A stretch of DNA of 64,000 nucleotides from a virus. The notes below the pieces were generated by a model that was given only the letters and a program-made list of their open reading frames with translations, made no database searches and was not told the origin of the DNA. The DNA lies in IMG/VR virus record IMGVR_UViG_3300021961_000078, positions 1 through 64,000 of that record. One strand, written 5' to 3'. The position numbers were made by a program, and so were the translations under genes. Below are positions 5,836 through 62,949 of the stretch, piece after piece (position 1 is the stretch's first letter; each line of letters opens with the position of its first letter).

Positions 5836-6183
5836 TTATGCAACTGGCACAGGGATGCGGGTCACCGCATGGGGGAGCATCTCATTGCCAGGGTGATCAT
5901 TCACTTTACCCTTATATAGCACAACATCGTGCATATGACTATCATCAACCTCCAGATCATCCCAGTATTCACTAAACACTAAGAGATTACATTGCTCATA
6001 CTTACGAGCAGATCCTACTGGCAATTCCTTCTCTTTGAAGCAAATGCAAATATAGTCATCACATATGAAACTGATGAATCCTTCAGTTTCTTTATAGCGA
6101 GCACGCTGACCAATCTCTAGAGTTTGCAAGATCTTCTTGACCTCCAAGGGGATGCTCTCAGAGATTAGCAGCGGGATGGTCAT
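5836..6183 (-). CDS. Conserved cyanophage hypothetical, 115 aa
   Basis: The middle of the protein (EGFISFICDDYICICFKEKE, then YWDDLEV) resembles small proteins I recall from several cyanomyoviruses, always unassigned. It is a beta-rich single domain. Its start overlaps the stop of the upstream oxygenase by 4 bases, so it may be translated together with the oxygenase run. Confidence 0.65.
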   Translation of the reverse strand: MTIPLLISESIPLEVKKILQTLEIGQRARYKETEGFISFICDDYICICFKEKELPVGSARKYEQCNLLVFSEYWDDLEVDDSHMHDVVLYKGKVNDHPGNEMLPHAVTRIPVPVA

Positions 6184-6806
6184 ATTGTCAACCTCGATTC
6201 CATTGATCCGACTGTGCCTTTAACAAAGTAGTTGAAAGCAACACTGTATCTATGAATCTTTGATGCACTTGCTGTTACATAATGTGGTATGTGTGAGGGA
6301 AAGATAAGGATCATTCCTTTCTCTGGTGTGATAGGAAACTCCCTCATGTTGTAGATATTTGGATCAACAATATCTAAGTTGACTGTGCTTGTTGCATATG
6401 TGGGAAACATTGATGGGATGCTGAATATAATGTCACCACTATCTTCTGGAACAGAGAGATATACCACCCCACTAAACATGCTGTTGACATGCACATGTGA
6501 GGCGGCACGATCTCCCTCTAGGTGTAGATTAACCCAGGATGATTGATGATCAAGATAAACCGATTCTCTACTCGCTCCTAGTATTCCAAACACATAGTCG
6601 CTGAGGTGTGCCTCAACAACTCTCTTCAAGTTGGGCACAGTTTCTAACCATCTTGTATTTGTGCTGATACTACCATTGTTGCCATAGGTAGGATCATCAC
6701 CACATGGATTTACAAACTGTGTGTTTTCTGCATTGATAATACAACCGTCATCTATATCACAATAATCAATGTATAACGGAGTAGAGAATAACGGGAGTAT
6801 TTCCAT
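6180..6806 (-). CDS. 2OG-Fe(II) oxygenase, TIGR02466-like, 208 aa
   Basis: The start MEILPLFSTPLYIDY is the usual opening of this family. The iron ligands are H104-x-H106 and H175, with R186 as the 2-oxoglutarate anchor. FPSHIPHYV around the distal His matches the family pattern. Substrates of the family are mostly unknown, and bacterial members occur beside tryptophan halogenases. ATG 6806 overlaps the region just after the upstream small gene stop (6808). It closes the oxygenase run 10252 to 6180. Confidence 0.8.
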   Translation of the reverse strand: MEILPLFSTPLYIDYCDIDDGCIINAENTQFVNPCGDDPTYGNNGSISTNTRWLETVPNLKRVVEAHLSDYVFGILGASRESVYLDHQSSWVNLHLEGDRAASHVHVNSMFSGVVYLSVPEDSGDIIFSIPSMFPTYATSTVNLDIVDPNIYNMREFPITPEKGMILIFPSHIPHYVTASASKIHRYSVAFNYFVKGTVGSMESRLTI

Positions 6807-6807
6807 A

Positions 6808-6966
6808 TTAACGTAGATGCAATTTGTCTGCAATTTCACCAAGCAACTGTCGCTGATCTTCAGGCATTTCGCCATAACGATTGTAGCAGTCTTTTTGATA
6901 TACAAAAAGTGCTCTTCTCAGTAGGTTTTTTTCCTCTCGGTCGAGGATTGCGCTTGTCAGTAACAT
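6808..6966 (-). CDS. Small helical protein, 52 aa
   Basis: ATG at 6966 is preceded by a good AGGAG Shine-Dalgarno, unusual in this window, and ends at TAA 6808 just before the oxygenase ATG. The peptide (MLLTSAILDREEKNLLRRAL, then GEMPEDQRQLLGEI) is charged and helical. An ATTAAATAG late-promoter-like box lies about 30 bases upstream. No family is recognised. Confidence 0.65.
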   Translation of the reverse strand: MLLTSAILDREEKNLLRRALFVYQKDCYNRYGEMPEDQRQLLGEIADKLHLR

Positions 6967-7017
6967 AGTCCCCAATCTCCTACGGAGTTGTCATTACTAT
7001 TTAATGATAACGGAGTT

Positions 7018-7725
7018 TCAAGAGAGCGCAATGTTTCTCCATATTTCCTTAACTGTCTTGGTATCAAAACCTGCAATACCACGATCTTCTGGTGGTGGAG
7101 TTTCATTCATTTCATAGTCAACAAACAGAGACTGTCTTACATCAGGATCCATATACTTATATGCTAAGACATATCTATTAAACATAAACTTTGGTCCTGG
7201 TGGTCTACCTGTGTGTGGAATACGACCATCAAACATTACAACACGTCCAGGTCTAGGTTGCACAATACACTTTGCATCTAGATCATCATCAAAGAAAATA
7301 GTTTCCCCACCCCATTCAGGATGCCAAACTGGATTCATATAAACTAATACAGTTTTATTCTGTGCCACATTGAATGGTGCATCAACATGAATACCAGGAG
7401 AATTGCCATATCTGAGCACATTGATATATGCAGAATAGCAGTGGTCACGAGGGGGCATCTCGGGCACCACCGCTTCAAGATAGGTCAGAATATCTTGCCA
7501 CAAATTATTATTACTTGCTGCCAATCCTGCATTTTGAAAGTAATCAGGATCTTCAATGGGACAGAAGTTATGTAACTGATGTGTCCAATACATTCCTGCC
7601 CACTCAACATTAGGATTATCTACGGTTGGGGGAGCATCAGTGCGACTGCATTTGTATGGCAGTTGAATGATCTCTTCCGCCAACTCCTGAGTTACTAGAT
7701 TAGTATTGAATACTTGGATTGTCAT
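7018..7725 (-). CDS. 2OG-Fe(II) oxygenase, prolyl-hydroxylase-like, 235 aa
   Basis: The classical site H113-V-D115, WGGETIFF, H171 (in the R-I-P-H-T-G context) and R184 are all present, as in prolyl-4-hydroxylase-type dioxygenases. That branch usually hydroxylates proline or other residues in proteins or peptides. It overlaps its upstream neighbour by 26 bases, showing co-translation within the oxygenase run. The substrate is not known. Confidence 0.85.
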   Translation of the reverse strand: MTIQVFNTNLVTQELAEEIIQLPYKCSRTDAPPTVDNPNVEWAGMYWTHQLHNFCPIEDPDYFQNAGLAASNNNLWQDILTYLEAVVPEMPPRDHCYSAYINVLRYGNSPGIHVDAPFNVAQNKTVLVYMNPVWHPEWGGETIFFDDDLDAKCIVQPRPGRVVMFDGRIPHTGRPPGPKFMFNRYVLAYKYMDPDVRQSLFVDYEMNETPPPEDRGIAGFDTKTVKEIWRNIALS

Positions 7726-8332
7726 TTACAAAGTTACCCATAATGTTGAGGGACATAACATATCTATCCTTATTACTATTATTGACTTCTGTCTTGTGAG
7801 TCAACCACCCTGGGAAGAATAATACATCTCCAGTTTCTACACTGATTGGACACCATTCGTGTCCGTCATCATAATAATGATAGTTAAGTGGTTCTCCCAA
7901 TTTGTATATACTGAGAGGATTCTTGATCATGAATCTACCACTATTCTTTGGAACATGCAAGTATGCAGCAACAGCAACGGTGACATTTTGATGATGATGC
8001 TCTGCTGTCCATGCTCCTGGTGGATGCACATTGATCCACGATTCGGATAGATTCTTATTCATGGGAGCAAGTCTCCACGTCTCCCAAACATCATTAACCT
8101 TATCAAATAACCATGGTCTAAACTCTTCAAACTCATCCCATGCATGAGGTGGAAGGACTCTATTGATGACTACACTTGTTGTGCCACCACCTTTCTCATG
8201 GGTGTCATAATTATTCTCTTCGATCGTCTGCCTTGCTGCTAGCAAATGCCCATCAACTTTATCTTTGATTGTATTAAACTTGAAATCAAACTTACTCTTA
8301 AACACATAGGGGAATGGGTTAATTGATTTCAT
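7700..8332 (-). CDS. 2OG-Fe(II) oxygenase, TIGR02466-like, 210 aa
   Basis: The iron site appears as H112/H114 in EHHHQNVTVAVAAYLHVP, followed by PGWLTHKTEVN (H179) and R190. The YLHVPKNSG strand is typical of the family. It overlaps both neighbours (26 bases downstream, 14 upstream). It is probably part of a co-translated set of oxygenases. Confidence 0.8.
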   Translation of the reverse strand: MKSINPFPYVFKSKFDFKFNTIKDKVDGHLLAARQTIEENNYDTHEKGGGTTSVVINRVLPPHAWDEFEEFRPWLFDKVNDVWETWRLAPMNKNLSESWINVHPPGAWTAEHHHQNVTVAVAAYLHVPKNSGRFMIKNPLSIYKLGEPLNYHYYDDGHEWCPISVETGDVLFFPGWLTHKTEVNNSNKDRYVMSLNIMGNFVNDNPSIQY

Positions 8333-9008
8333 AATACTTTCTCTTGGGACGTTGTATTGATGGCACTGACATCATAGGAATACTTATAGACAACCTCTTC
8401 TGTTTTGGTTGTGCTTGATGATAACATCTCTCAGGTATGAATAACATATCTCCTGGTTGTAGCATCACATCAATGACACAATCAAGATCACTTTCTTTTG
8501 GATCTACATCAGCACTAATCAACTCTGATTGTCTATTATTATAGACTTTCCAATGTGTCTCACCATCAACTTGTAGAATGAAGTTGTGTGCGTGATCTCT
8601 ATGAATAGGGAAAGACTTAGAGTTTTCTAAACCACAATACACATGAAATGCTGCTGTGATGTTTGTAAATATACACTCAATCTCATTCAATAATTCTTGC
8701 TTACCTTTGATCCATTCAAAGTTATTGATGATGCAAGCGTGTCCTGCTTTGAAAGCATTACAAATGTCCTCAACTTCGGGTGTTGGTGGTGACCAGACAC
8801 GATCATACATTGGGAATGAAATATAGTCATTGGTCTTTTTATCAATGAATTGTATATCATAGAAATGAGGATTGTTAAGACAATACTCTACTTCTTTCCA
8901 TGATACAAACTCTTCGGGATTATCACAAATGCCAGGAAAATGCTGTGGAGAATCATCAAGAAACCAATCTTTAGATGATAACAGTTTTGTCAGAGTCGAA
9001 GAGATCAT
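8319..9008 (-). CDS. JmjC/cupin-type oxygenase, 229 aa
   Basis: The motif H136-R-D138 followed by HNFILQVDGETHWKVY and then GDMLFIPERCYHQA (H197) is that of the JmjC/Cupin_4 group, which includes ribosomal-protein hydroxylases such as bacterial YcfD/RoxA. Known members hydroxylate arginine or histidine side chains in proteins. This makes protein hydroxylation plausible here. It overlaps both neighbours. Confidence 0.8.
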   Translation of the reverse strand: MISSTLTKLLSSKDWFLDDSPQHFPGICDNPEEFVSWKEVEYCLNNPHFYDIQFIDKKTNDYISFPMYDRVWSPPTPEVEDICNAFKAGHACIINNFEWIKGKQELLNEIECIFTNITAAFHVYCGLENSKSFPIHRDHAHNFILQVDGETHWKVYNNRQSELISADVDPKESDLDCVIDVMLQPGDMLFIPERCYHQAQPKQKRLSISIPMMSVPSIQRPKRKYYEIN

Positions 9009-9633
9009 AGTCTGATTTGAAATTAAGATTAAGAATCACACGATATGGATTAGTAACTGGATTCGATGATGAATGAAACTGATGTCCATCAAATACAAAT
9101 AATTTATTTGCTTGTGGTGTTACTCTATGCTTAACTGTATATTCTTGTGTACGTGCCCTAAACCATCTCTCATCTACAGTGCCACTCTCAGGATCATCAT
9201 ACTGATCAAAGAATACTGTATCACCTGAAGAGTCATGAAAATAAAATAGAGCAGCATAATGATCCTCCTCACTATCAGTGTGGGCACCATTATGGTGATC
9301 AATGCCGTTATTTAATTGCAATGCAAGTCTCACCCTAAAGAATGTTACGGGGTGAGACATCGCATCTTGAATGTTATCCAATAGAGGTTGAAATGCTGGC
9401 AAATATGGACTCTCAATACCTCCCTGATCCAGAAGTAAGTGAGTGAATCCCACTGTCTTTTCTTCTGGTTTCATATCTAACAATCTATGCTCACCAAACT
9501 CATATCCCTTTGTGCTATATGCAACATCTTCGGATAGGAAAAACCATGGGAATCCATTCATTCCAGATACAAGATCGGTAAGTCTATTCAGATATGACTG
9601 ACCGATAACATTATCTACTTGGATATATTTCAC
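8971..9633 (-). CDS. 2OG-Fe(II) oxygenase, 220 aa
   Basis: Ligands H118-T-D120 and H187, and anchor R198 in the segment NPYRVILNLNF, are clear. GDTVFFDQY precedes the insert. The start codon appears to be GTG at 9633, with no ATG available before residue 25. It overlaps the downstream JmjC gene by 38 bases and the upstream gene by 23. The substrate is unknown. Confidence 0.8.
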   Translation of the reverse strand: MKYIQVDNVIGQSYLNRLTDLVSGMNGFPWFFLSEDVAYSTKGYEFGEHRLLDMKPEEKTVGFTHLLLDQGGIESPYLPAFQPLLDNIQDAMSHPVTFFRVRLALQLNNGIDHHNGAHTDSEEDHYAALFYFHDSSGDTVFFDQYDDPESGTVDERWFRARTQEYTVKHRVTPQANKLFVFDGHQFHSSSNPVTNPYRVILNLNFKSDYDLFDSDKTVII

Positions 9634-10252
9634 GATAGTAATTTGAGAAAGGAATTATATTGAATGATAGAGAGATCCTATCATCATCACTGGCACTTTT
9701 GCTCACACTATGCTGCAACCAAGACGGAAATAAGATCATCATATCATCCTTAGGATCCATGAAGTAATCAGTGCGATTATAATGCTCATTCTGATACTTG
9801 TTAAAATTAGCATCACAACCCCAAGATTCTTTGAGCATCATGTCTTCAAATCTATTATGAAAGTTGATATGACCTGAGCAACATGATGGGACATCAACAT
9901 AATAAACTCCAGACAATACTGACCCAGCATGTGTGTGAAGATTATTATAATGCCCCTTGCCATTAACATTCAACCACAGATTTGTGATCTTCAACGTATA
10001 GTCCTGAAATCCCCATTCATCACAAGCAAGATAAGCAATTTGCAGTATCTTGTCGCGAATCTCTCTCAGAGGATTATTGAGCATTACACTATCAATGAAG
10101 TCGTGAGATTGCCATCCCCCATAGTTGGTGGCAACTCTACCTTCAGGATCTTCTTGTCTAACAAGAGAGATAAACTGCTTTAGTTTATCTCTATCAACCC
10201 CACACTCTTCTTCAATCCAAAGTGGTGTGGGGAATAACAATTCAGTCTTCAC
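9611..10252 (-). CDS. 2OG-Fe(II) oxygenase, TIGR02466-like, 213 aa
   Basis: It begins with the family's TELLFPTPLW strand. Ligands H106-T-H108 and H181, and anchor R192, are present, with GVYYVDVP and FPSWLQHSV as in other members. GTG 10252 is preferred as start because AAGGAG lies 10 bases upstream; a TTG at 10261 is too close to it. It overlaps the upstream coiled-coil gene by 11 bases. It opens the overlapping oxygenase run. Confidence 0.8.
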   Translation of the reverse strand: MKTELLFPTPLWIEEECGVDRDKLKQFISLVRQEDPEGRVATNYGGWQSHDFIDSVMLNNPLREIRDKILQIAYLACDEWGFQDYTLKITNLWLNVNGKGHYNNLHTHAGSVLSGVYYVDVPSCCSGHINFHNRFEDMMLKESWGCDANFNKYQNEHYNRTDYFMDPKDDMMILFPSWLQHSVSKSASDDDRISLSFNIIPFSNYYREIYPSR

Positions 10253-10598
10253 TAAATTCAAACTCCTTGTCAGTCACATTAGGATCAACATGCTTTTTAT
10301 ACAGATACAATGCTTCGATTGCACCAGTAAGTTTGTTGAGGTGATCTTTCTTCAACTGCAATTCTTCCAGTGAAATCTTTGTGATCGTGGAAGTATAATG
10401 CATGTTATCAAGTGCTTCTTGCAGTTTCCAATACTCTTGTTTAGTATCTTCATGCTGCTGCAAGAAATTCATGACAAGTTGGTCAAATGTAATGAGACCT
10501 TCAATCTCATTTTCTTTTTCAATAACTCTTTTTTCTTCTTCAGTGGCAACACCTGCCACCTCGGCAATGTTCACTTCAGTTACAGTTTGCTCAGACAT
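10242..10598 (-). CDS. Coiled-coil hypothetical protein, 118 aa
   Basis: Nearly the whole chain is predicted helical, with heptad patterning from about residue 20 to 95 (KLQEALDNM, EELQLKKDHLNKLTGAIEAL). The termini are acidic. It sits between the DUF6065-like gene and the oxygenases and could be a scaffold or adaptor for them, which is inference only. No enzymatic motif is seen. Confidence 0.6.
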   Translation of the reverse strand: MSEQTVTEVNIAEVAGVATEEEKRVIEKENEIEGLITFDQLVMNFLQQHEDTKQEYWKLQEALDNMHYTSTITKISLEELQLKKDHLNKLTGAIEALYLYKKHVDPNVTDKEFEFSED

Positions 10599-10600
10599 AG

Positions 10601-11479
10601 TTACATAAACCTCTTGATGTTTTTATTTAGCGCAAGAATCACTTTATGTGTCTTGATTCTTTCTTTTAGAGTTTCCATCTCCATAAAGTTTTTGAATCTT
10701 TGATATTCCATGATGTTGTTATTCTCAAGATCATACTCATTTGCAGTCTCAACTACAACATTCCACCCCTGCATCTTTAAGAAATCACGATGCACAGGCA
10801 CCCATTGACACAGCGGTGTGCCTGCTTTGACCAGATATTCTCCTGCTTCAATCTTATGCCAAAAGAGTTGAAGATTGATCTCATAAGAATAAGATGGATC
10901 AACAATACCTATGGGTGGTGTAAATCTATCCTCATCCCAATATGGGATAGGCATTTGAATAAACACTACATCTGGATGTGCTTGCACACGCCAAGGCAAT
11001 TCTAGTTTGACTGTCCAATCGAGCACATCCTTTGTTTGATCTACAAGATCACGCATACCTTCAGTCTGCTGTGGAATATGTGCCTTAACATATCTCTGAT
11101 TGTTATTGAATAGCATCTGAGATGCCCACTCAAAGTTGACACCAGTGCCATCAGTCTTGATAATAAAGTCGGCAGGTGCAGGCAAAACGTATCCACTATC
11201 CATCAAACCTGTCAATGCTGGGCATGTAACAGCATGAGAATATATTTCTGGTGTGCCATCTCTACCATGCATTTCATTCTGCACTCTTTCCCACAATTTC
11301 TTTACACGAAGATATGGGCAACGTTTTGAAGGATCATTCTGCTGTTTGATAGCATCAGTCCTCCATTTACGATGTAATTTCCTTGCAGGAAACCAAGGAT
11401 GCAGATCTGCAACTCCAGGATCTACCGAATAGAATCTAATCCACGGTTTCTTCTTCTTGAATATATTCATCAGTGCCAT
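10601..11479 (-). CDS. DUF6065-like protein, 292 aa
   Basis: The features I recall for DUF6065 are present: a CPALTGLMDSGYVLPAPADF segment (about residues 85-105), FIQMPIPYWDEDRF, and a later KAGTPLCQWVPV strand near residue 220. The biochemical function is unknown. The gene overlaps the tryptophan halogenase by 44 bases. From memory, such genes accompany halogenases and TIGR02466 oxygenases in other cyanophages, which supports one pathway. Confidence 0.6.
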   Translation of the reverse strand: MALMNIFKKKKPWIRFYSVDPGVADLHPWFPARKLHRKWRTDAIKQQNDPSKRCPYLRVKKLWERVQNEMHGRDGTPEIYSHAVTCPALTGLMDSGYVLPAPADFIIKTDGTGVNFEWASQMLFNNNQRYVKAHIPQQTEGMRDLVDQTKDVLDWTVKLELPWRVQAHPDVVFIQMPIPYWDEDRFTPPIGIVDPSYSYEINLQLFWHKIEAGEYLVKAGTPLCQWVPVHRDFLKMQGWNVVVETANEYDLENNNIMEYQRFKNFMEMETLKERIKTHKVILALNKNIKRFM

Positions 11480-13058
11480 AGATAAACTTCAGTAGGTATT
11501 CGTAATGCGTGTTTTGTCTGCTTGCCCATTCTAACACAACTTGTCGATCAAGTTGCCATTTATCATGGATTTCTTTTACAATGTCTAGACGACTATCAAC
11601 ATCGTATTTTGCCTTCTCCATGTAGAATGTTTCATTGATAGGTCGAAATCCTTGACCCGCAGCAATGTATATAGATCCCTGAAGTTTAGCAGAATCATAG
11701 AATGCATTCTCAATACCATCTAAGAGATTAAATACATCATTATATGCATTGATTGTTGACGGAAATGCATCTTTCGGTAGTGGGAATGTGATCTTACTTG
11801 TGCAATCTCTCCAGTATGGTGTATCTTCACGCATACTCAATGCATAATGAAGTGCAATGAAGTTTTTCATTGACTCTATCATATTATCGGTAATCCAATT
11901 ATATGAGTCTGTATCAAACCTCAAAACATGACCTTGGCGTCGCGACAGAGTATCGCACAGATAAATTAGATTCTCATGAGTTGTCATCAGTCCTGTAGAT
12001 TCCAATGGTTCTAGGAAACCAAATGACAATCCAACACCAACTACATTCTTTTCCCATGCAACTTTGTGCTTACCGTGTTTAATCCTGATCGGGAATACGT
12101 CGGCACTTCGGGCAATTTCGGGCGAAAATCTTCCCGATAGGTATTTTCTAAACTCAATCTCAGCATCATGATCTGAAATATGTTTGCTGCTATAAACATA
12201 TCCTGTGCCAATACGATGCCACAGTGGGATATTCCAGACCCATCCACTACTCAAAGCAACACAGTCAGTATATGTTTCCATATCCTCCTGCCTATTAACA
12301 TATGGGATGCGTGTTGCCATTGCTCTATCATTAAAGAGCATGTGATTGAATGACTCAAACTCAACACCCATGTGCTGCTCAAGTAGTAATGACTTGAATC
12401 CTGTGCAATCTAAGAATAGATCTGCGGATACAATTCCCCCATCAGAGGTTACAATAGAATCAATATACCCATCAGGTCTCTTAATTACATTCTCAATATC
12501 ACCCTTGAGATGCACAACACCATTGGGTACTGCAATGTTGTCTCTTAGATATTCTCCAAACAATGCTGCATCCAAATGATATGCAGTATCGTTATCGAAA
12601 TTAAATGTAGATCCAGGAATCTCTTTAGCAATTCTACATTCATCTGCCAAGAATGTATTGAGATTGGCAAAGCGGGCAAATTCTTCGGGTGGATATAATT
12701 CATATCCAAATTGACACTGCAATTCAAAGAATCTCAACAGAGCATCCCTGTAATCGATCATGTCAAAGTGACCGAAAGGATACTGGAATCTCTCTCCCTT
12801 CCCCTCTCTAAAATCCTTAAATGCAATGGAAGTTTTATAAGTTGCATTACATGCAGGCATCCAATCAGAATCCTTCAAATCTAATCGTCTGAGGAATCGA
12901 TTGAAGTGTCCTAGTGTAGATTCACCCACACCGATCGTTGGCACTCGTTCAGACTCAATCAGAGCGATCTCCATGTCTGGAAATGTTTTGGACAGCAGTG
13001 CTGCTGCCATCCATCCACTACTACCGCCGCCAACAATACAAATACTTTCTACTTTCAT
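11436..13058 (-). CDS. Flavin-dependent tryptophan halogenase, 540 aa
   Basis: The FAD-binding GGGSSGW near the N-terminus, the WVWNIP motif around residue 271, a Lys in SIAFKDF (about 83) and FLEPLEST with its Glu near 349 all match flavin-dependent halogenases. Such enzymes use FADH2, O2 and chloride or bromide to halogenate indole rings, free or in a carrier. I start at ATG 13058 (MKVESICIVGGG), because a GTG at 13085 would sit inside the terminator hairpin. Substrate and halide are unknown. It heads the oxygenase cluster. Confidence 0.85.
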   Translation of the reverse strand: MKVESICIVGGGSSGWMAAALLSKTFPDMEIALIESERVPTIGVGESTLGHFNRFLRRLDLKDSDWMPACNATYKTSIAFKDFREGKGERFQYPFGHFDMIDYRDALLRFFELQCQFGYELYPPEEFARFANLNTFLADECRIAKEIPGSTFNFDNDTAYHLDAALFGEYLRDNIAVPNGVVHLKGDIENVIKRPDGYIDSIVTSDGGIVSADLFLDCTGFKSLLLEQHMGVEFESFNHMLFNDRAMATRIPYVNRQEDMETYTDCVALSSGWVWNIPLWHRIGTGYVYSSKHISDHDAEIEFRKYLSGRFSPEIARSADVFPIRIKHGKHKVAWEKNVVGVGLSFGFLEPLESTGLMTTHENLIYLCDTLSRRQGHVLRFDTDSYNWITDNMIESMKNFIALHYALSMREDTPYWRDCTSKITFPLPKDAFPSTINAYNDVFNLLDGIENAFYDSAKLQGSIYIAAGQGFRPINETFYMEKAKYDVDSRLDIVKEIHDKWQLDRQVVLEWASRQNTHYEYLLKFIYGTDEYIQEEETVD

Positions 13059-13061
13059 ACT

Positions 13062-13091
13062 AAAAAAATAGAGGTGTTTACTCACCTCTAT
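13062..13091 (-). terminator. Rho-independent terminator
   Basis: On the minus strand a 9-bp stem (ATAGAGGTG / CACCTCTAT as read on plus) with a 6-base loop is followed by seven T. It lies between the stop of the structural gene at 13113 and the halogenase start, so it ends late structural transcription and isolates the halogenase cluster. Confidence 0.8.
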
Positions 13092-13112
13092 GTATGCTTT
13101 ACTATTTTGTTA

Positions 13113-13544
13113 TTATACGCCAGGTGGCACCCAGTTGTCAACCCAAGGATCCCACGCTGCTCTTCCGTCAAGTTGCACTTTCTTAGGATCTTCCACAAAC
13201 TCAGGAATAGATGTGGGTGAAGTTGTGCTTGCTTTTACTGCTGCAATATGATCTCTCCAGCGAGTGCCACCATCAAGAGAATCTTTATACTGCATATCTA
13301 ATTGCTCACCAATAGGACCATATGCCAATTCTCGATCAACAACAGCACTTCGTCTCAGATCTTCTTGCTCACTGTGATGGATAACTACACCATTTACCAT
13401 CACATGTTCGTATGTGCAGTCATCAGGCACTGATACCCACTTCATTTCAGCATCAGGACCTTCATAGATCTCAAACTTATCTGCCTCATCACAGATGTCT
13501 GATAGTTGTCCTGTTGTCTTACTGCAAATTGCTACTTTTGCCAT
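13113..13544 (-). CDS. Virion-associated or fibre-related protein, 143 aa
   Basis: The C-terminal half (IGEQLDMQYKDSLDGGTRWRDHIAAVKA, given here in pieces: IGEQLDMQYKD and WRDHIAAVKA) resembles a module common at the ends of cyanophage fibre or fibre-assembly proteins. A similar module ends the 103-residue protein at 16073. It has its own late promoter (13568) and a terminator downstream. The exact role is not known. Confidence 0.55.
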   Translation of the reverse strand: MAKVAICSKTTGQLSDICDEADKFEIYEGPDAEMKWVSVPDDCTYEHVMVNGVVIHHSEQEDLRRSAVVDRELAYGPIGEQLDMQYKDSLDGGTRWRDHIAAVKASTTSPTSIPEFVEDPKKVQLDGRAAWDPWVDNWVPPGV

Positions 13545-13567: not shown

Positions 13568-13575
13568 TATTTATA
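13568..13575 (-). promoter_or_regulatory. Late promoter TATAAATA
   Basis: An exact T4-type late box lies 24 bases before ATG 13544, with an AAGGAG ribosome site in between. It sits immediately beyond the stop codon of the upstream adhesin gene. Confidence 0.7.
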
Positions 13576-14379
13576 TTAACCGTAGTATTCATAAACAACT
13601 ACGACGCCTTCACGTCCTCTAGCACCTCTGTTACCTTCACGAGCACCGTTACCTCCAGCACCCCAAGCGGCGTGAGATTGGTGATTGTGTGCATAGTTTC
13701 TTTGGTTATACGATGAAGGTTGCGTGCCACCCATATATGATGCACCTGCGGTGTGATTTCCATATGAGTGATATGATCCGTGACCATTACCGCCACCACC
13801 ATATACATTTAGAGTACCACCAGATCCATTGCCACCAATGCCTCCAGCGTGCTGCTGTCTACAGTTAGCACCATATCCGCCAGATGCTGAGCAATAACTG
13901 CCAAATGACGATGTATTTCCACCACCCCCACATCCAGAGTAGTTTGTGCCACCACCAGGATTTCCTACAGTAACAGTGACTGATGAGACGTTGGTAACAT
14001 CGAGCATACGCTCTGACATACCACCAGCACCACCAGATTCACAGAAACCTGATCCACCACCACCAGCACCAACTACTTGGACGCGAATAGATTTAACGTT
14101 ACTAGGTCTACTCCAAGTGCCGTTAGATGTCCACACCTGCATAGAGCGAAACCCTGTGGTTGTGCTGACATCAACCCATTGGAGATTCGTACCATTGGTA
14201 GACAGATATTTTCCACTCTGGAGAGATGGAATGATATAGTTGGAAGAACCTGAGATAGATCCGTTAATCGAAAGATTATTCACCTTCAAAGTGCCACTAA
14301 CAGTGATGGATCCACCAGAGAGAGTGAAACCACCAATACCTGCTAAGTCTTTAATAGATGCTACTTTAAGAACGCTCAT
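13576..14379 (-). CDS. Glycine-rich tail adhesin, copy 1, 267 aa
   Basis: The N-terminal 70 residues are a beta-rich head (KVASIKDLAGIGGFTLSGG, then SNYIIPSLQSGKYL). Next comes MQVWTSNGTW and, from residue 105 on, several polyglycine blocks separated by variable His/Tyr/Ser loops, ending GAREGNRGARGREGVVVV. This layout recalls the polyglycine-sandwich adhesins (gp38 type) at T-even fibre tips, which bind host receptors. It is one of three tandem paralogues, each with its own late promoter. Copy 1 differs mainly in the loops around residues 205-245. Confidence 0.7.
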   Translation of the reverse strand: MSVLKVASIKDLAGIGGFTLSGGSITVSGTLKVNNLSINGSISGSSNYIIPSLQSGKYLSTNGTNLQWVDVSTTTGFRSMQVWTSNGTWSRPSNVKSIRVQVVGAGGGGSGFCESGGAGGMSERMLDVTNVSSVTVTVGNPGGGTNYSGCGGGGNTSSFGSYCSASGGYGANCRQQHAGGIGGNGSGGTLNVYGGGGNGHGSYHSYGNHTAGASYMGGTQPSSYNQRNYAHNHQSHAAWGAGGNGAREGNRGARGREGVVVVYEYYG

Positions 14380-14400: not shown

Positions 14401-14408
14401 TATTTATC
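14401..14408 (-). promoter_or_regulatory. Late promoter GATAAATA
   Basis: It sits 22 bases upstream of ATG 14379 and overlaps the stop codon of the preceding adhesin copy. An AAGGAAG ribosome site follows. Confidence 0.65.
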
Positions 14409-15216
14409 AACCGAAAAACTCTTGGACAACAACTACACCTTCACGTCCTCTAGCACCTCTGTTGCCTTCACGAGCACCATTGCCTCCAGCACCCCAAGCG
14501 CAATGAGATTGGTGATTGTGTGCATAGTTTCTCTGGTTGTGTGATGAAGGTTGGGATCCACCCATGTAACTACATCCAGCAGAGTGATTACCATAGATGT
14601 GATATGAACCATGTCCACATCCACCACCACCATACACATTTACACTACCACCAGATCCATTGCCACCAATGCCTCCAGCGTGTTGTGAGCGACAGTTAGC
14701 ACCATATCCACCAGATGCAGAGCAATAACTACCAAACGATGAAGTGTTACCATTACCCCCACATCCAGAGTAGTTTGTGCCACCACCAGGATTTCCTACA
14801 GTAACACCAACGGATGAAACATTAGTAACATCCACAACACGCTCTGCCATACCACCAGCGCCGCCAGATTCAGCAAAACCCGATCCGCCGCCGCCAGCAC
14901 CAACAACAGTTACGATGATAGATTTACATCCAGTAGGTCTATTCCAAGTGCCGTTAGATGTCCACACCTGCATGGATCTAATGCCACTACCAACAGTTGC
15001 AGTCTGCCATTCCAGACCACCACCTGTTGATGCCAAAATCTTTCCAGAGTTACCTGCTTGTGGGGGAATTACATATGCAGACTGACCCTGAATCTGACCG
15101 TTAATAATAACATTAGATATAGTGAGAGTAGTGCTTACAGTGATACCACCGCCCGAGAATTGAAAACCCGCCGAGTCGGTAAGATCCCTAATAGATGCTA
15201 CTTTTAACTGTGACAT
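14407..15216 (-). CDS. Glycine-rich tail adhesin, copy 2, 269 aa
   Basis: The architecture is the same as copy 1. The N-terminal module (KVASIRDLTDSAGFQFSGGG) differs clearly, and the tip loops carry different residues (CGHGSYHIYGNHSAGCSYMG). The polyglycine core is nearly unchanged. Cys residues in the loops are more numerous than in copies 1 and 3. It is probably a receptor-binding variant used in place of, or alongside, the other two. Confidence 0.7.
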   Translation of the reverse strand: MSQLKVASIRDLTDSAGFQFSGGGITVSTTLTISNVIINGQIQGQSAYVIPPQAGNSGKILASTGGGLEWQTATVGSGIRSMQVWTSNGTWNRPTGCKSIIVTVVGAGGGGSGFAESGGAGGMAERVVDVTNVSSVGVTVGNPGGGTNYSGCGGNGNTSSFGSYCSASGGYGANCRSQHAGGIGGNGSGGSVNVYGGGGCGHGSYHIYGNHSAGCSYMGGSQPSSHNQRNYAHNHQSHCAWGAGGNGAREGNRGARGREGVVVVQEFFG

Positions 15217-15233: not shown

Positions 15234-15241
15234 TATTTATC
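15234..15241 (-). promoter_or_regulatory. Late promoter GATAAATA
   Basis: A late box 18 bases before ATG 15216, overlapping the end of adhesin copy 3. Confidence 0.6.
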
Positions 15242-16049
15242 AACCGAAAAACTCGTGGACAACCACAACACCTTCACGTCCTCTAGCACCACGGTTACCA
15301 TGCTGAGAACCATTACCACCAGCACCCCAAGCAGCATGTGATTGGTGCCTGTGTGAATAATTTGACTGGTTGTGTGATGAAGGTTGTGACCCACCCCAGT
15401 ATGAAACTCCACCAGCATGAGTGCCATAGGAGTGGTGAGATCCATGACCATTACCACCACCGCCGTAGATATTCAAACTACCACCAGATCCATTGCCTCC
15501 GATGCCTCCAGCGTGCTGCTGTCTACAGTTAGCACCATATCCACCAGATGCACTACAGTATGATCCAAAGGATGAGGTATTTCCACCACCCCCACATCCA
15601 GAGTAGTTTGTGCCACCACCAGGAGTGCCTACAGTAACAGTAACTGATGAGACGTTAGTAACATCCACCTGTCTCTGTGCAGTACCACCAGCACCACCAG
15701 ATTCACAGTGTCCAGATCCACCGCCGCCACCGCCAGTTACGGTTACCATAATAGTTCTTACACCACTGGGTTTACTCCAAGTGCCGTTAGATGTCCACAC
15801 CTGCATGGATCTAACACCAGTCTGGGTGTTAAGAGTACCCCACTGAGTTGTGGAACCGTTGTTAGTTAAAAACTTGCCACTATTTCCAGATGGATTAGGA
15901 ATCAGAAATCCAGAAGATCCACTAATAGTGCCATCAACCACTAGGTCAGTCACAGTTAAAGTGCCGTTAGCAGTAACACCCCCAGAGGAGAGCGTAAAAC
16001 CACCCACACCACTTAAATCTTTAATAGCATTTACATTTAACTGTGCCAT
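15240..16049 (-). CDS. Glycine-rich tail adhesin, copy 3, 269 aa
   Basis: The architecture is the same as copies 1 and 2. The N-terminus is MAQLNVNAIKDLSGVGGF. The tip loops (HHSYGTHAGGVSYWGGSQ) and the near-C-terminal segment (GNGSQHGNRGARGREG) differ from the other copies. It is the first of the three in transcription order. The shared polyglycine blocks suggest the same fold with diversified receptor loops. Confidence 0.7.
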   Translation of the reverse strand: MAQLNVNAIKDLSGVGGFTLSSGGVTANGTLTVTDLVVDGTISGSSGFLIPNPSGNSGKFLTNNGSTTQWGTLNTQTGVRSMQVWTSNGTWSKPSGVRTIMVTVTGGGGGGSGHCESGGAGGTAQRQVDVTNVSSVTVTVGTPGGGTNYSGCGGGGNTSSFGSYCSASGGYGANCRQQHAGGIGGNGSGGSLNIYGGGGNGHGSHHSYGTHAGGVSYWGGSQPSSHNQSNYSHRHQSHAAWGAGGNGSQHGNRGARGREGVVVVHEFFG

Positions 16050-17314: not shown

Positions 17315-20300
17315 CTAGATAACCAATTCACGGATCATAACGTTATCACCAGTCTGGGGAGTTGTGCCCACAGAGAAGTCAACAGCGTTTGCAGTCACAG
17401 TATAGTCAGTGCCAGGACGCTGACAAACACCATTCAAGAATACCAGGACAGAGTTTTGATTGTGTCCAGGCGAAATTGCGAATGAAGTAGTGCTACCATT
17501 ACCAGTATACATGACACCATTGTTGCCATTATTGACACCTGTTGCCAGTGAGTATTTATCTGCACATCCATACCTACCAGTCACATCCAGGTTTCCAGTG
17601 ATCTCAGTATTACCAGAGATTCTCATTCTGTTATTGGCATCAGGGGCAATTCCGATACCATAATGTGTTTCACCAGAGAATCTTTGTGAAGTGATAGGTC
17701 CAGTATCACTCAGACCAAACTTATACCAGATTCCAGATTCATAAATCCAACCAAGGAATGTGCCAGGAGTCCAGTCAACATTATAGCAAAGATCACCAGT
17801 GTTAAATGCAGCAAGTGGATCCACATCTGGGTTGCCAGCACCATCGTCAGGTGCCATCAGAATGTTTCTCAGCACCGTGCCATCATCGTTAGACAGTGTG
17901 AAGTTGAGAGTCTGAATCTGATCCTGTGATGTAATCTTCTTCTGGAAGGTTACAGGACCTGAGAATACAGATTCCAACTGGTTAGATGCACCACCAATAA
18001 CAGTCAGTTTATCAGTCAGCACCAACTCAGAGAATGTCTCAATCGTTGTGCCTTCTTCACCCAACACATTCAACTGTGCAATATCCTCGTTAGTGATCTG
18101 ACCTGTAACTGGGTTGATAACTTGGTTACCAACAAACAACTCACCATCACTATTCACACCAGAGTAGTATGCAACGCCTGCTGCTTCTTTGAGTGACTGA
18201 GATAGTCTAACTGCTTCAGGTGAGAGCACTTCCACCTGAGTAGATGGGAATGCTGTTGAATAGTTACCAGGACCAAATCCAAGATACTCAAACGTGTGAC
18301 CAGATGCACGAAGAATAGAATAACGACGCAACTCAATCAAGATAGGTTGGACAGAGTTGTCAGCATTCAGTTTCAGGGGGATCTTACGCTCTTCAGCATC
18401 ACCAAGACGTGCAGTCACAGAGATACCATTCAGCACGTTTGATGTAGTGTTATAACCTAGGTTATTCTCAGATTCCAACAGGAAGAATTGAGATGATTCC
18501 TTAGTAATAGATCTCTCTGTGTCTAGATTGGGTGTAGGTGAAGCACCATCAGTTGTAAATACTTCACCAATGATTTCATTATCGGCAATAGACACAGCAG
18601 CAGGAGGATCTGCCACAGGGTTATCTCTGTCAAATGCAGGATACAGATCAACCGTATTCTGAGAGAAGTAGAAATCGTTGAAGTTTGATGTAGAAGGAGC
18701 AACAGATGCATTCAAGAATGTCAGATAGTAGATACCATCTGCAACACCACGCTCAAACTCTTGGAATGTCTCTACACTATAGATGTAGTATGTCTTAGAG
18801 TATGCAGGAGAGTTTGTCTCTGATGATCTAGGTTGTGCAACGAAACCTGTAATGGGAGGACGGGGCACAGGGAATGCATCTTTATCGAGCACATAGCGAT
18901 AACGATAGATTCTGTCAACAAGGTTTCTCGCATCGGGCACACGACGGATGAATGTAGTAGGTGTGAATCCGAGATTCTGATAAAGAGAGTTTGCTTGTAG
19001 TGTAGTGTAGATAGTGTTAGCACTTGCATCTACTTGAATATACCATGCATTATTAACACTATCCCACTTCAGAGGTGAGTCATCATCACCAGCACGAGTG
19101 CCAGTTACTTGCTTACCTGAAGGATTGATCTCTGCATAGTGTGTGGTAGGTTCTGTTGCACCTGATGCAAGCAGAAGCACATATAGTCTGTCAGGTGTAT
19201 TAACGTCATCACGTCTTGCACCAACAGTATAACCTTGCACTTTGCTTGGTGGTCTACCTGTCTCCACTGTATATCCATACAGGAAGAGTTTGGAAGGATC
19301 AGCAACACTACGAGTCTTGTTAATATCAATCGTCACCCAGTTGATAGAGATCTCATCAACATCATCTAGCGACTTAGGTGGAATGACGTGAGTGATTTGA
19401 CCTGCTTTATCCTTGGTAAAGGCATTTGCCTTGAAACCTTTGGATCGGAGAGATGTGTTACCAAAGTTGGAGTTAGAGTTGGTAATTGAAAGGTCACCAC
19501 CACTATCTGAGAAGAAGTGATCACCGAATCCCACAGCAAACACCGACACAACCTGAATGAATGCGTCATTAGATGCTTTAATGTGGCAATGACGCCATCC
19601 CTTACGATACTTACATAGACCGTTAATGTGTGCGCCAGATCCTGCTGCTTGGACTTCATATGCACCAGTCGTTTGGTTATACAACACAAACGCTCTATCA
19701 TCTTTTTGTAGTGAAATACCAGTAAACTGTGCAACCACCATCGATTTGAAACCAGTTGCCTCAGCACCATCGGCGTGCATACCATTGATGCCCCACACCG
19801 ATCTGAGTGACATGTTGAAGACATATGGTGACGCAGAGTCAACAGTATCAATCTCAACTTTCACCAGAATGTTACTACCAAGTGCGTTACCTGATGGTTC
19901 AGCAGACATCTGGTAAGTGAATTGGTTGCCCTGTGCTGACGTTACCAGGAATGATCCATTGTAGAGGAGAGCATCTTGGTCAGTAGGACCAGTAACACCA
20001 GATATATTAACAGCGACACCCACGGAGAATCCATGATTCTTCGGATTGCCCAATTCGTCCACCGTGAAGGCGGTTGCGGTTTGACCATTGCGGATAATCT
20101 GGGAAACTGCAAATTCGTCCGAGATAGGACCCACAATTCTGTTTTCTTCCACCCTGGGTTGCAACTGGTCTTGTGCAACGATGCCAGAGGTATCAGGAAT
20201 AACAGCATAACCTTTGGAGATCTTTTGGTAATACAACTCAAGATCTGCCTTGTTTGCATACTCAAAACATGTCACCTTATGGTGAGAATAGTTAGGAGCA

Positions 20301-20887
20301 ATTTGCGAAAGATCGTCACGATAGTAAACACCAGTTGTGTCACCATCAAAGAATGATGCCTGCCAGAAATAGCAACCACCAGTTACCCTAAAGATCGCAG
20401 TAGGATCAGGTTCATTAGCAGCAGTAATGCCGAGACTACCCTGTACTGTGGGATAAGGGACGTATTTCGGAATGAACTTGGTTCGACGTAAGTCCGAACC
20501 AACAACAGAAGCACCACGAGGGACAATAACACCACCGCGAGTTGAATTAAACTTATAAAGTTCATTGCTTGGAGATGTTAGATCAAAGTTTGAGTTTTCA
20601 TTAAATGGTTGGATCTGGTTGTAATCAGAAAGACCAGGACGGTTATCAATTACATATTCAGATGGATACAAATAAATCGAGAAGGCGTCAAATTCGTCGT
20701 TTGACAGACCGACTCGATACGAAAATCTAGCAACCTCAAGGAATGCACGTTGCAACGTCTTAAACGGACGCAACGCCGAGTTACCTCGGTTGTCATATGC
20801 GTCCGATGCATCGAAGTCATCAGGGTTGACGTAGATAATACGTCCTGTCCTCGACGTAATGATATTCTTAAGACGAGTAAGTGCCAT
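17315..20887 (-). CDS. Large virion structural protein, 1190 aa
   Basis: The opening (RLKNIITSRTGRIIYVNPDD, then RPFKTLQRAFLEVARFSYRVG) is the one I recall from the large structural protein present in cyanomyovirus particles. It resembles the start of a right-handed beta-helix of the pectate-lyase type, and later sections contain collar- or fibre-like beta repeats. It ends in a GYTVTANAVDF-like module seen at the tips of phage fibres. It probably builds a baseplate or long fibre part. A single late promoter precedes it (20913). Confidence 0.65.
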   Translation of the reverse strand: MALTRLKNIITSRTGRIIYVNPDDFDASDAYDNRGNSALRPFKTLQRAFLEVARFSYRVGLSNDEFDAFSIYLYPSEYVIDNRPGLSDYNQIQPFNENSNFDLTSPSNELYKFNSTRGGVIVPRGASVVGSDLRRTKFIPKYVPYPTVQGSLGITAANEPDPTAIFRVTGGCYFWQASFFDGDTTGVYYRDDLSQIAPNYSHHKVTCFEYANKADLELYYQKISKGYAVIPDTSGIVAQDQLQPRVEENRIVGPISDEFAVSQIIRNGQTATAFTVDELGNPKNHGFSVGVAVNISGVTGPTDQDALLYNGSFLVTSAQGNQFTYQMSAEPSGNALGSNILVKVEIDTVDSASPYVFNMSLRSVWGINGMHADGAEATGFKSMVVAQFTGISLQKDDRAFVLYNQTTGAYEVQAAGSGAHINGLCKYRKGWRHCHIKASNDAFIQVVSVFAVGFGDHFFSDSGGDLSITNSNSNFGNTSLRSKGFKANAFTKDKAGQITHVIPPKSLDDVDEISINWVTIDINKTRSVADPSKLFLYGYTVETGRPPSKVQGYTVGARRDDVNTPDRLYVLLLASGATEPTTHYAEINPSGKQVTGTRAGDDDSPLKWDSVNNAWYIQVDASANTIYTTLQANSLYQNLGFTPTTFIRRVPDARNLVDRIYRYRYVLDKDAFPVPRPPITGFVAQPRSSETNSPAYSKTYYIYSVETFQEFERGVADGIYYLTFLNASVAPSTSNFNDFYFSQNTVDLYPAFDRDNPVADPPAAVSIADNEIIGEVFTTDGASPTPNLDTERSITKESSQFFLLESENNLGYNTTSNVLNGISVTARLGDAEERKIPLKLNADNSVQPILIELRRYSILRASGHTFEYLGFGPGNYSTAFPSTQVEVLSPEAVRLSQSLKEAAGVAYYSGVNSDGELFVGNQVINPVTGQITNEDIAQLNVLGEEGTTIETFSELVLTDKLTVIGGASNQLESVFSGPVTFQKKITSQDQIQTLNFTLSNDDGTVLRNILMAPDDGAGNPDVDPLAAFNTGDLCYNVDWTPGTFLGWIYESGIWYKFGLSDTGPITSQRFSGETHYGIGIAPDANNRMRISGNTEITGNLDVTGRYGCADKYSLATGVNNGNNGVMYTGNGSTTSFAISPGHNQNSVLVFLNGVCQRPGTDYTVTANAVDFSVGTTPQTGDNVMIRELVI

Positions 20888-60422: not shown

Positions 60423-61919
60423 CTACTCGGTGTCAACCCCCTCGGCGGGGATCTCGTAGTCGAATGTGCCAGAAAGAAATTCGTACATGGTTGGCAGGGT
60501 CTCGGCAAGGCGTTTGCGTTGCTCATACTTGTGTTTCCACTGTGCCACAGTCTTCTCTGAGACTAGACATGGATACCCAAAGTATTCATAATGACGTTTG
60601 TTGATGTTTGTATAACCAGATCCAGCAAGAATAAATGCGATAGGCATATGTCCTGTCGGAATAGGATCACCAGAGACCATCATATGACGGACAGATTCAT
60701 GAGTGCCCTCTTGCTTATACTGCACCTCATCAGTAACTGCTCTCCAGAAAGGCGTATCACGTCGGTGTGAATAGTAGTAATGTGCTTCCACAAACTCACG
60801 CCAACCATCCATGTGCTCAGAGAGATCATGATTGAAACGATCTCTAGCAAATTGACCTGGCAGTTTTTCTTCTCTGAGAATATCCATCAGAGCAAGAATG
60901 CCATGGTGTGTGTTAAACAATGACGTGGATTCTAGAGGCTCGATGAAACCATACGACAAACCAATAGCAACACAGTTACCTACCCATGCTTCTTCGTGTC
61001 TGCCATTTCTAAAGGTGATGAGTTTCGCATCATCATATCCAAACTCTTCTCTAGCATCCTCCTCAGTCTGATGCTTCGATGAAAAAACATATCCACGACT
61101 AATAAAATCGTAGGTAGGAATAGTCCACTGCCAACCCGAAGACATTGCCTTAGCATTGGTATAAGGCACCATCTGTTTCTTTCTATTCGTATACTCTGTC
61201 TTTACTACCAGAGCAGAGTCAGTGGGGATCGTATCAAATTCTACCCATCTGCTGAGAGCCCCCGAGACGGCACTCGCTTGGCCTGTACAGTCGATATAGA
61301 GATCACCGTATACTTCTTTTGGTTTGATATCGAACGGTCCTCTATCCACCAGGACACTTGTGATATTTCTTCCGTCATAACGAGCTGACTTAACCTTACT
61401 ATCAACCACCGTAATACCTTGACAGAAAGTAGTCTGAAGATACTCCGAAAATGCTTTAGCGTTGATGTGGAATGATCTGTCTTTGGCGAGGTCATATGGA
61501 AATAGCAAAGGATCGTTAAGTGGCATCTTACCCTCCTCTGCGACCGTCACAAATGGCATAAAGACATCTGCGAAAGGGGGAAGATCTTCTGGATAAAATG
61601 CTTTCGCAAGCATCCAGTCGTGATACTTTACGTCAGTATTTATCGACTGTCCATTGGGATAGTGGAATACTTGACCTTCCGAAACAAAACCTTCAAATCT
61701 AGATGAAGATTTGAAGGTTGCTCTTGCCGCAGGAAGGAATACTTCATCAGTAATTCCCATGTATCTGAGATACTGATTGATATGAGGTGTAGTTGATTCA
61801 CCAACCCCAATTGATTCACCACCAGTGATGATAGTAATATCCCATTCGGGAAAAGTTTTACAGAAGGCGGCAGCAGTCATCCAACCAGATGTGCCACCAC
61901 CACAAATAACAACTTTCAT
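60423..61919 (-). CDS. Flavin-dependent tryptophan halogenase, second copy, 498 aa
   Basis: GGGTSGWMTAAAF is the FAD motif, GWQWTIP near residue 260 is the WxWxIP signature, ATFKSSSRFEGF holds the likely active Lys (about 69), and GLSYGFIEPLEST holds the Glu (about 327). It is related to, but shorter and clearly diverged from, the copy at 11436. It overlaps the upstream small gene by 4 bases, which in turn overlaps an oxygenase. Substrate unknown. Confidence 0.85.
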   Translation of the reverse strand: MKVVICGGGTSGWMTAAAFCKTFPEWDITIITGGESIGVGESTTPHINQYLRYMGITDEVFLPAARATFKSSSRFEGFVSEGQVFHYPNGQSINTDVKYHDWMLAKAFYPEDLPPFADVFMPFVTVAEEGKMPLNDPLLFPYDLAKDRSFHINAKAFSEYLQTTFCQGITVVDSKVKSARYDGRNITSVLVDRGPFDIKPKEVYGDLYIDCTGQASAVSGALSRWVEFDTIPTDSALVVKTEYTNRKKQMVPYTNAKAMSSGWQWTIPTYDFISRGYVFSSKHQTEEDAREEFGYDDAKLITFRNGRHEEAWVGNCVAIGLSYGFIEPLESTSLFNTHHGILALMDILREEKLPGQFARDRFNHDLSEHMDGWREFVEAHYYYSHRRDTPFWRAVTDEVQYKQEGTHESVRHMMVSGDPIPTGHMPIAFILAGSGYTNINKRHYEYFGYPCLVSEKTVAQWKHKYEQRKRLAETLPTMYEFLSGTFDYEIPAEGVDTE

Positions 61920-62203
61920 TCTTGTTTCTCGTTAAGTGTAGCGTAGATTGCTCTCCATGATGCCAACTCAGATTTAACTTTTGCAGTTGCCATAGCAATA
62001 GGATCACCATTGAATTCCTTTAACTCTTCAGTCATAGGATTCTCTTCCGTAGGGAGCACATCATTAAACAAACCATTACTGGTGAAGTAATGGCAGAATT
62101 CGTAAATGCTTGAGTTAATTTCTTCCTTTGCTCGCACACAGCATATCAAGCATAGTGCTCGCTTCTCAAGATTCTCATCGGTGTAGCGCCAATCAGCATT
62201 CAT
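61916..62203 (-). CDS. Hypothetical protein between halogenase and oxygenase, 95 aa
   Basis: A helical, Glu/Lys-rich protein (MNADWRYTDENLEKRALCLI, then KVKSELASWRAIYATLNEKQ). It overlaps both neighbours by 4 bases. By position it may be a partner for the halogenase-oxygenase pair, an inference. No family is recognised. Confidence 0.6.
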   Translation of the reverse strand: MNADWRYTDENLEKRALCLICCVRAKEEINSSIYEFCHYFTSNGLFNDVLPTEENPMTEELKEFNGDPIAMATAKVKSELASWRAIYATLNEKQE

Positions 62204-62859: not shown

Positions 62860-62949
62860 CTTCAACAACTCTCAATTCTTTTTGGTTTGGCATCATACCA
62901 CATAATGTAAGTAGGAAGTCAGCCTTCGTTTTTGATAATCCAGAATATT

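Follow-up and report, generated by a model that had tools for sequence, protein, structure and literature searches.

A 64,000-nt stretch of viral DNA (positions 1 to 64,000 of the 68,117-base IMG/VR record IMGVR_UViG_3300021961_000078; hereafter the window), which carries the cyanomyovirus hallmarks psbA, psbD, gp32, PhoH, and Thy1, encodes on its minus strand a halogenase-oxygenase cluster. Read 5' to 3', the cluster consists of H, D, c, T1, E1, J, T2, E2, and T3, and neighbouring genes overlap or touch. H is a VirX1-type flavin-dependent halogenase, and T1, E1, J, T2, E2, and T3 are non-heme iron oxygenases. Directly upstream of the cluster lie a large tail fibre gene (17315-20887), three genes for glycine-rich gp38-like adhesin candidates (G1 to G3; PF21722, phrog_863), and S, a gene for a small protein with a C-terminal tryptophan tail. 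From this arrangement, we consider the chances slightly better than even that the fibre-tip module is the target of a phage-encoded protein-modification system. The module would comprise the large fibres, G, and S (S probably being the assembly chaperone of G), and the halogenase and oxygenases would act on it during assembly. Two roles for S are envisaged. In the one ranked first, the tail Trp and its neighbouring residues would be the site of halogenation and hydroxylation, as in a leader-plus-core precursor; in the second, the S tail would recruit the enzymes to G, and the Tyr/His/Asn-rich domain of G would be modified. We favour modification of the S tail somewhat over recruitment alone, since S differs between phages with and without the cluster and G does not. 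In its most specific form, which we put forward tentatively and at somewhat less than even chances, the proposal is that marine T4-like phages halogenate (with the chloride, bromide, or iodide of sea water) and hydroxylate the Trp tail of their own fibre-assembly protein, or the fibre tip held by that protein, and would thereby place non-standard residues where the virion recognises its host.

Cyanophage halogenases and the numerous 2-oxoglutarate (2OG) oxygenases of these phages have long been listed as auxiliary metabolic genes of unknown role. The link to the fibre tip, together with a partner S that occurs in tailed and tailless forms, offers a testable hypothesis for the natural substrate of VirX1. 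If the proposal is true, phages would use chemistry to widen the amino-acid alphabet of the surface with which they recognise hosts, reclassification would reach many cyanophage genomes, and the system would be, to our knowledge, the first known case of halogenated virion proteins. The roles suggested in print are antibiotic protection (halogenase) and DNA repair or control of 2OG (oxygenases) (PMC2984593, PMC3037559, PMC9964418, PMC9602691). A search that lacked most of the subscription literature yielded no paper that connects tail fibres with the halogenases or 2OG oxygenases of phages.

Conserved gene order around the fibre tip

The minus-strand cluster of overlapping or touching genes had been described in an earlier note made from this DNA alone, and it is real: family and coordinate checks agree, and its end at 13058 matches the ATG start of H, which replaces the GTG start at 13085 given in the open reading frame (ORF) list. 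Judged from the gene overlaps, co-translation of the cluster genes is plausible. The earlier note would have doubted a shared pathway had the genes not been conserved together in relatives. More than 90 relatives with a length of 12 kb or more keep the gene order, so that this ground for doubt falls away, and the set of tailoring enzymes, with intact catalytic residues, is conserved together in cyanophages. At the DNA level, no relatives of the cluster were found by megablast.

In cyanophages, the cluster is almost always preceded by large tail fibre genes, then one to three G genes, and then S. The order fibre-G-S-H-D-c-oxygenases is present in the isolates P-TIM40, Syn9, S-CREM1 (where G is ORF67 and S is ORF68, and where mass spectrometry of virions gave 14 proteins; PMC9964418), and S-RIM44, with variants in Sf-FP1, S-WAM1, P-RSM6, S-SZBM1, and Sf-FR1, and also in most of 80 IMG/VR loci found via the halogenase. 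When halogenase loci with at least 5 kb of upstream DNA were considered, G was found within 5 kb in 50/56 and S within 2.5 kb in 49/56; when IMG/VR was searched with the N-terminal domain of S only, a halogenase lay within 2.5 kb downstream in 62/62 and G just upstream in 66/66, counts that overstate independence because the IMG/VR loci overlap and are related. Moreover, full-length S occurs in 20 phage records (of 50,697), all 20 of which contain a VirX1-type halogenase, as do 12/12 phage records with this type of G. In S-SRM01, a divergent halogenase is flanked directly by fibre genes on one side and, on the other, by an adhesin that carries the annotation 'gp37-gp38 adhesin tip complex', and in Sf-CH11 a fibre gene, an adhesin-like gene, two oxygenases, a halogenase, and further oxygenases stand in sequence.

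Bacterial counterparts of the whole cluster were not found in 80 bacterial halogenase loci, which gave no matches of the S, G, D, or T types. The same loci do not bear out the idea, stated in the earlier note, that TIGR02466 proteins sit near bacterial tryptophan halogenases: they gave 0 T-type, 3 E-type, and 1 JmjC oxygenase, with phage-derived profiles that may miss divergent members.

The position next to fibre genes could instead be an insertion hotspot, with the cluster serving auxiliary metabolism; the halogenase would then act on free tryptophan or a host metabolite (yielding an antibiotic-like product), and the oxygenases would tune 2-oxoglutarate or produce small molecules. This view is the one found in the literature, comprising antibiotic protection (stated as speculative) and control of the 2OG level (PMC2984593, PMC3037559, PMC9964418). 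It is favoured by the many small aromatics that VirX1 halogenates in vitro (PMC8407142), by a different halogenase subtype that has psbA/psbD as neighbours both in this window and in S-MbCM25, and by the hotspot-like slot after S, in which clusterless phages carry unrelated small genes, a methylase, and a helicase. However, a pure hotspot leaves unexplained both the fixed order G-S-H-D-c-oxygenases over diverse phages and the gain of a Trp tail by S beside the cluster. Furthermore, Pfam and PHROGs searches of the cluster genes revealed no biosynthetic core gene. We regard this explanation as unlikely. The earlier note had remarked that nonribosomal peptide synthetase (NRPS), polyketide synthase (PKS), and precursor genes are lacking; its statement needs amending in that a candidate substrate or adaptor, S, stands directly upstream of H. 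It had also left a host protein, a phage protein or peptide, and a host metabolite as substrate options. A protein appears likelier than an NRPS or PKS product, and the choice is sharpened by the gene order, which points to the fibre-tip module.

The S protein and its C-terminal tail

In S, a conserved domain of about 106 residues is followed by a C-terminal tail that varies. One tail Trp (Trp131 here) is kept in at least 90% of 50 diverse S sequences, and a tail Trp, mostly after a small residue, is found in 49/49 lineages sharing less than about 70% similarity. Examples of the tail are PAWKRYPGWKGY, KAWDPWVDDW, DPAWNHLP, and SPAWTD; tail peptides of the S-CREM1 and Syn9 proteins read KPAWVRYPGWRGYKKD and VPCWKRYPGWSGYIPP, respectively. 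In the single natural case of Trp replaced by Phe (locus L143), a second Trp is kept. In three loci (L066, L067, and L083), G and S precede three tandem halogenases plus E-type oxygenases, and the S tail is of the SPAWTD type.

Natural controls are provided by S-H35, S-RIM2, S-RIM12, P-RSM1, and S-BM1, in which the same kind of G-S pair is present without an adjacent halogenase cluster. In these phages, S is tailless, with 112-119 residues; for clusterless G, S-BM1 has the annotation 'gp38 distal long tail fiber assembly catalyst' and S-RIM12 has 'tail fiber assembly protein'. When cases were counted by genus or unclassified isolate lineage, tail and cluster occurred together in 9 lineages and were both absent from 4 genera, with 0 discordant (Fisher p 0.0014, which relatedness makes approximate). 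These controls do carry oxygenases: one of the E type stands just before G in 4/5 and nearby in S-H35, and three of the five also have a T-type oxygenase about 1 kb beyond S.

A more restricted version of the proposal, counted within it, is that the S tail merely tethers the enzymes, so that G would be modified and S left unchanged. Conserved Trp residues often serve as hot spots of binding, and several enzymes would need several sites, which G, with 30% Gly and about 5% Tyr, 6% His, and 6% Asn in its last 180 residues, could offer. However, G did not differ clearly in composition between phages with the cluster and phages lacking it (clusterless G has 6.8% Tyr and 5.0% His); unlike S, G is so far unmarked by the presence of the enzymes. 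Taken by itself, docking without modification of S seems doubtful to us.

That S is the assembly chaperone of G is likely, because of its position and its predicted layout of strands and helices. Like Tfa-type genes, S lies directly downstream of the fibre tip gene in 66/66 loci. Its AlphaFold2 model (predicted local distance difference test, pLDDT, 94.6) has five strands at residues 3-56 and helices at residues 57-106, and it matched a viral 'tail fiber assembly protein' at E 0.016 and probability 0.96. In cyanophage Pam3, gp25 is the assembly chaperone of the fibre gp24, a client with a Gly-rich gp38-like tip domain, and gp25 is described with a layout like that predicted for S, strands first and helices after them (PMC9608196). 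The Pam3 gp24/gp25 pair, as well as the Tfa chaperones and the gp38 adhesins of T-even phages, resembles the arrangement here, where a Gly-rich fibre tip gene is followed by one for a small protein of predicted strands plus helices. In contrast to gp25, to which it has no detectable sequence similarity, S possesses an extra C-terminal tail with the conserved Trp.

The tailoring of ribosomally synthesised and post-translationally modified peptides (RiPPs), for which MibH is an example of a peptide-acting halogenase, may offer another comparison. As in such systems, S joins a conserved N-terminal domain to a variable C-terminal segment with a conserved Trp, beside a halogenase and oxygenases. 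It differs in that no protease, exporter, or self-resistance gene was recognised among the cluster genes at 5836-13058 (Pfam, PHROGs, NCBIfam), and in that the N-terminal domain of S resembles a fibre chaperone more than a leader.

Several points, beside the non-independence of the loci, weigh against modification of the fibre tip. The substrate, the chemistry, and the effect on host recognition are ones that we infer from genomics. In the fold search with the S model, gp25 of Pam3 was the top PDB match, although a weak one (E 1.3, probability 0.15), and the sequence profile of S had no match in the PDB. A chaperone normally leaves the virion, and modifying S itself would be odd. The number of Trp residues in the S tail is uncorrelated with the number of halogenases (rho 0.16, p 0.25), and no correlation was seen for Tyr in the tail; in about five loci, S is followed by a halogenase and has a different tail motif. 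S-H35 holds another VirX1-like halogenase elsewhere in its genome, so that the tail follows an adjacent cluster, not the possession of a halogenase. Finally, because a sigma70-like promoter lies between S and H, synthesis of the enzymes may begin before that of the late fibre proteins.

The halogenase and the oxygenases

VirX1 of Syn10 (PDB 6qgm) reportedly goes back to Gkotsi et al. 2019. H belongs to the same orthologous family; it shares 49% identity with the Syn9 protein in the alignment, and the Syn9 locus matches that of Syn10. The catalytic Lys84 and Glu359 of H are invariant in both halogenase types (11 sequences), and its adhesin, S, D, and oxygenase neighbours are common to the Syn9 record. 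VirX1 of cyanophage Syn10 was the first viral halogenase to be characterised, and its large, open active site accepts bulky substrates (PMC8407142). Whereas VirX1 is known as an isolated enzyme acting on small molecules, here H stands in a fibre-tip context with the partner S.

Two further halogenase contexts were observed. A second halogenase, 31% identical, lies with its own TIGR02466-like oxygenase beside psbD/psbA on the minus strand of the window (60423-61919 and 62200-62868), in a layout resembling that of S-MbCM25 (halogenase-psbD-ferredoxin-psbA). In S-H35, a VirX1-like halogenase (9004-10575; locus L177) is an insertion with recombination genes on one side and a 'peptidase' on the other, a context unlike that of the fibre cluster.

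The TIGR02466-like assignments of the earlier note are borne out. T1, T2, and T3 belong to the family PF13759/TIGR02466: T1 and T3 score over the TIGR02466 cut-off, and T2 scores under it and over that of PF13759. The PDB relatives of T1, 3bvc and 2rg4, are both uncharacterised proteins. The iron site of the T types reads HxH...H...R in 181/181 sequences and so is a three-His site, not the usual 2-His-1-carboxylate site. The latter is found in the E types (HxD...H...R in nearly all of 129) and in J (HRD...H...R in 63/63 relatives, HxD strictly). The claim that all of the oxygenases keep an apparent iron site thus holds as far as conservation in relatives is concerned, with the correction that the site of the T types is not canonical. 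Judging from their conserved catalytic residues, the cluster enzymes look active. For E2, which had been called prolyl-hydroxylase-like, membership in PF13640 stands (Table 1), whereas the likeness to prolyl hydroxylase domain (PHD) enzymes is weak, with matches to hypoxia-inducible factor (HIF) prolyl hydroxylases in the PDB at E 0.03-0.4.

The nearest solved relatives of J are MINA53 and NO66, which are ribosomal protein histidyl hydroxylases. With the 2OG/JmjC protein hydroxylases (MINA53, NO66, YcfD, PHD), J shares a JmjC_2 domain and the HxD...H...R site; it differs in being short (229 aa) and in lying in a phage operon. By analogy, this kinship with protein hydroxylases and the capacity of the open VirX1 active site for bulky substrates would support a protein target, beside the gene order. 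The kinship of J is also consistent with modification of host proteins during take-over (e.g., of ribosomal proteins via the JmjC enzyme); the S tail would then have no part in this and would serve to bind another fibre component. Oxygenases do occur elsewhere, with 5 to 16 phrog_81 matches per genome in 17/18 phage genomes searched, and Syn30 has a JmjC homologue away from its fibres. Nevertheless, S is present in 66/67 cluster-type JmjC loci of at least 12 kb, and neither the position beside fibre genes nor the S-tail correlation would be explained by a target in the host; we consider such a target improbable.

More T- and E-type oxygenases are scattered over the same phage (window 28248-28817 and 1985-2548; record 66739-67320), one of them beside tRNA genes. 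PHROG 274 and GenBank (DenV, T4-GC_100) label E-type oxygenases 'DNA endonuclease V' (window 8971-9633 and 7018-7725; loci L204-L207), which is probably a propagated mis-annotation.

Regulation, protein D, and neighbouring features

T4-type late motifs stand 25-36 nt before the starts of G1, G2, S, and several fibre genes. In relatives, a late motif is found within 60 nt upstream of 103/153 S genes, compared with 11% of other ORFs, and a late-type motif precedes 57/116 c homologues. In the gap between S and H, the promoter comes first, a strong hairpin with a T-run follows immediately, and then comes the halogenase start. A sigma70-like promoter with at least 11/12 matches is present at this site in 12/92 S loci, compared with 0/92 when shuffled, and a hairpin plus T-run in 29/85 relatives. 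A reading of the enzymes as part of a clean late operon was dropped on account of this promoter and hairpin. No Rfam RNA families were found in the 5-25 kb region of the window.

Table 1. Coordinates of the fibre-tip genes, the cluster genes, and the regulatory elements in the window
Feature	Position	Strand	Evidence or remark
Large tail fibre protein, 1190 aa	17315..20887	(-)	phrog_529 tail fiber protein, E 0, 1761 bits
Fibre-associated protein, 299 aa	16386..17285	(-)	phrog_7459; C-terminal half matches tail fibre family phrog_6942, E 3e-13
G3, glycine-rich gp38-like adhesin candidate	15240..16049	(-)	PF21722 Gly_rich_2, E 4.5e-8
G2, glycine-rich gp38-like adhesin candidate	14407..15216	(-)	PF21722, E 2.5e-8
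G1, glycine-rich gp38-like adhesin candidate	13576..14379	(-)	PF21722, E 1.2e-9; phrog_863 'tail fiber assembly', E 2e-61
T4-type late promoter motif TATAAATA	13568..13575	(-)	31 nt before S
S, small fibre-assembly-chaperone-like protein, C-terminal Trp tail	13113..13544	(-)	phrog_1787 domain; Trp131 codon at 13152-13154
Perfect sigma70-like promoter, TTGACA-N18-TATAAT	13112..13141	(-)	overlaps the end (last codons) of S
9-bp hairpin and T-run, terminator or attenuator	13068..13091	(-)	before the halogenase start
H, VirX1-type flavin-dependent halogenase	11436..13058	(-)	Trp_halogenase (Pfam), E 8e-111; PDB 6qgm VirX1, E 4e-156
D, dUTPase-like beta-barrel in the model	10601..11479	(-)	phrog_7084; AlphaFold2; Foldseek
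c, small coiled-coil protein	10242..10598	(-)	late-type motif CTAAATA 32 nt upstream, at 10630
T1, TIGR02466/PF13759 oxygenase	9611..10261	(-)	HxH...H...R; start TTG, or GTG at 10252
E1, 2OG-Fe(II) oxygenase	8971..9633	(-)	HxD...H...R; GTG start; phrog_274, E 4e-33; PF13640 weak
J, JmjC oxygenase, 229 aa	8319..9008	(-)	JmjC_2, E 4e-20; HRD...H...R
T2, TIGR02466-like oxygenase	7700..8332	(-)	HxH...H...R; PF13759
E2, 2OG-Fe(II) oxygenase, weakly PHD-type prolyl-hydroxylase-like	7018..7725	(-)	PF13640, E 5e-10
52-aa ORF between E2 and T3	6808..6966	(-)	read from sequence
T3, TIGR02466 oxygenase	6180..6806	(-)	HxH...H...R; start ATG at 6806, not TTG at 6905
s, small protein	5836..6183	(-)	4-nt overlap with T3; phrog_8681, E 6e-39

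The small protein s is found at the end of the cluster in 15 loci. D had been called DUF6065-like in the earlier note, which is hardly supported: the DUF6065 profile gave no match for the window protein and matched 1/32 homologues, at E 0.006. In its AlphaFold2 model (pLDDT 88.8), D is nearest to dUTPases by Foldseek (E 2e-4, TMt 0.5-0.6), and D was rejected as an oxygenase accordingly. In two loci (L084 and L085), three tandem D-like genes lie beside T-type oxygenases and halogenases, away from G and S.

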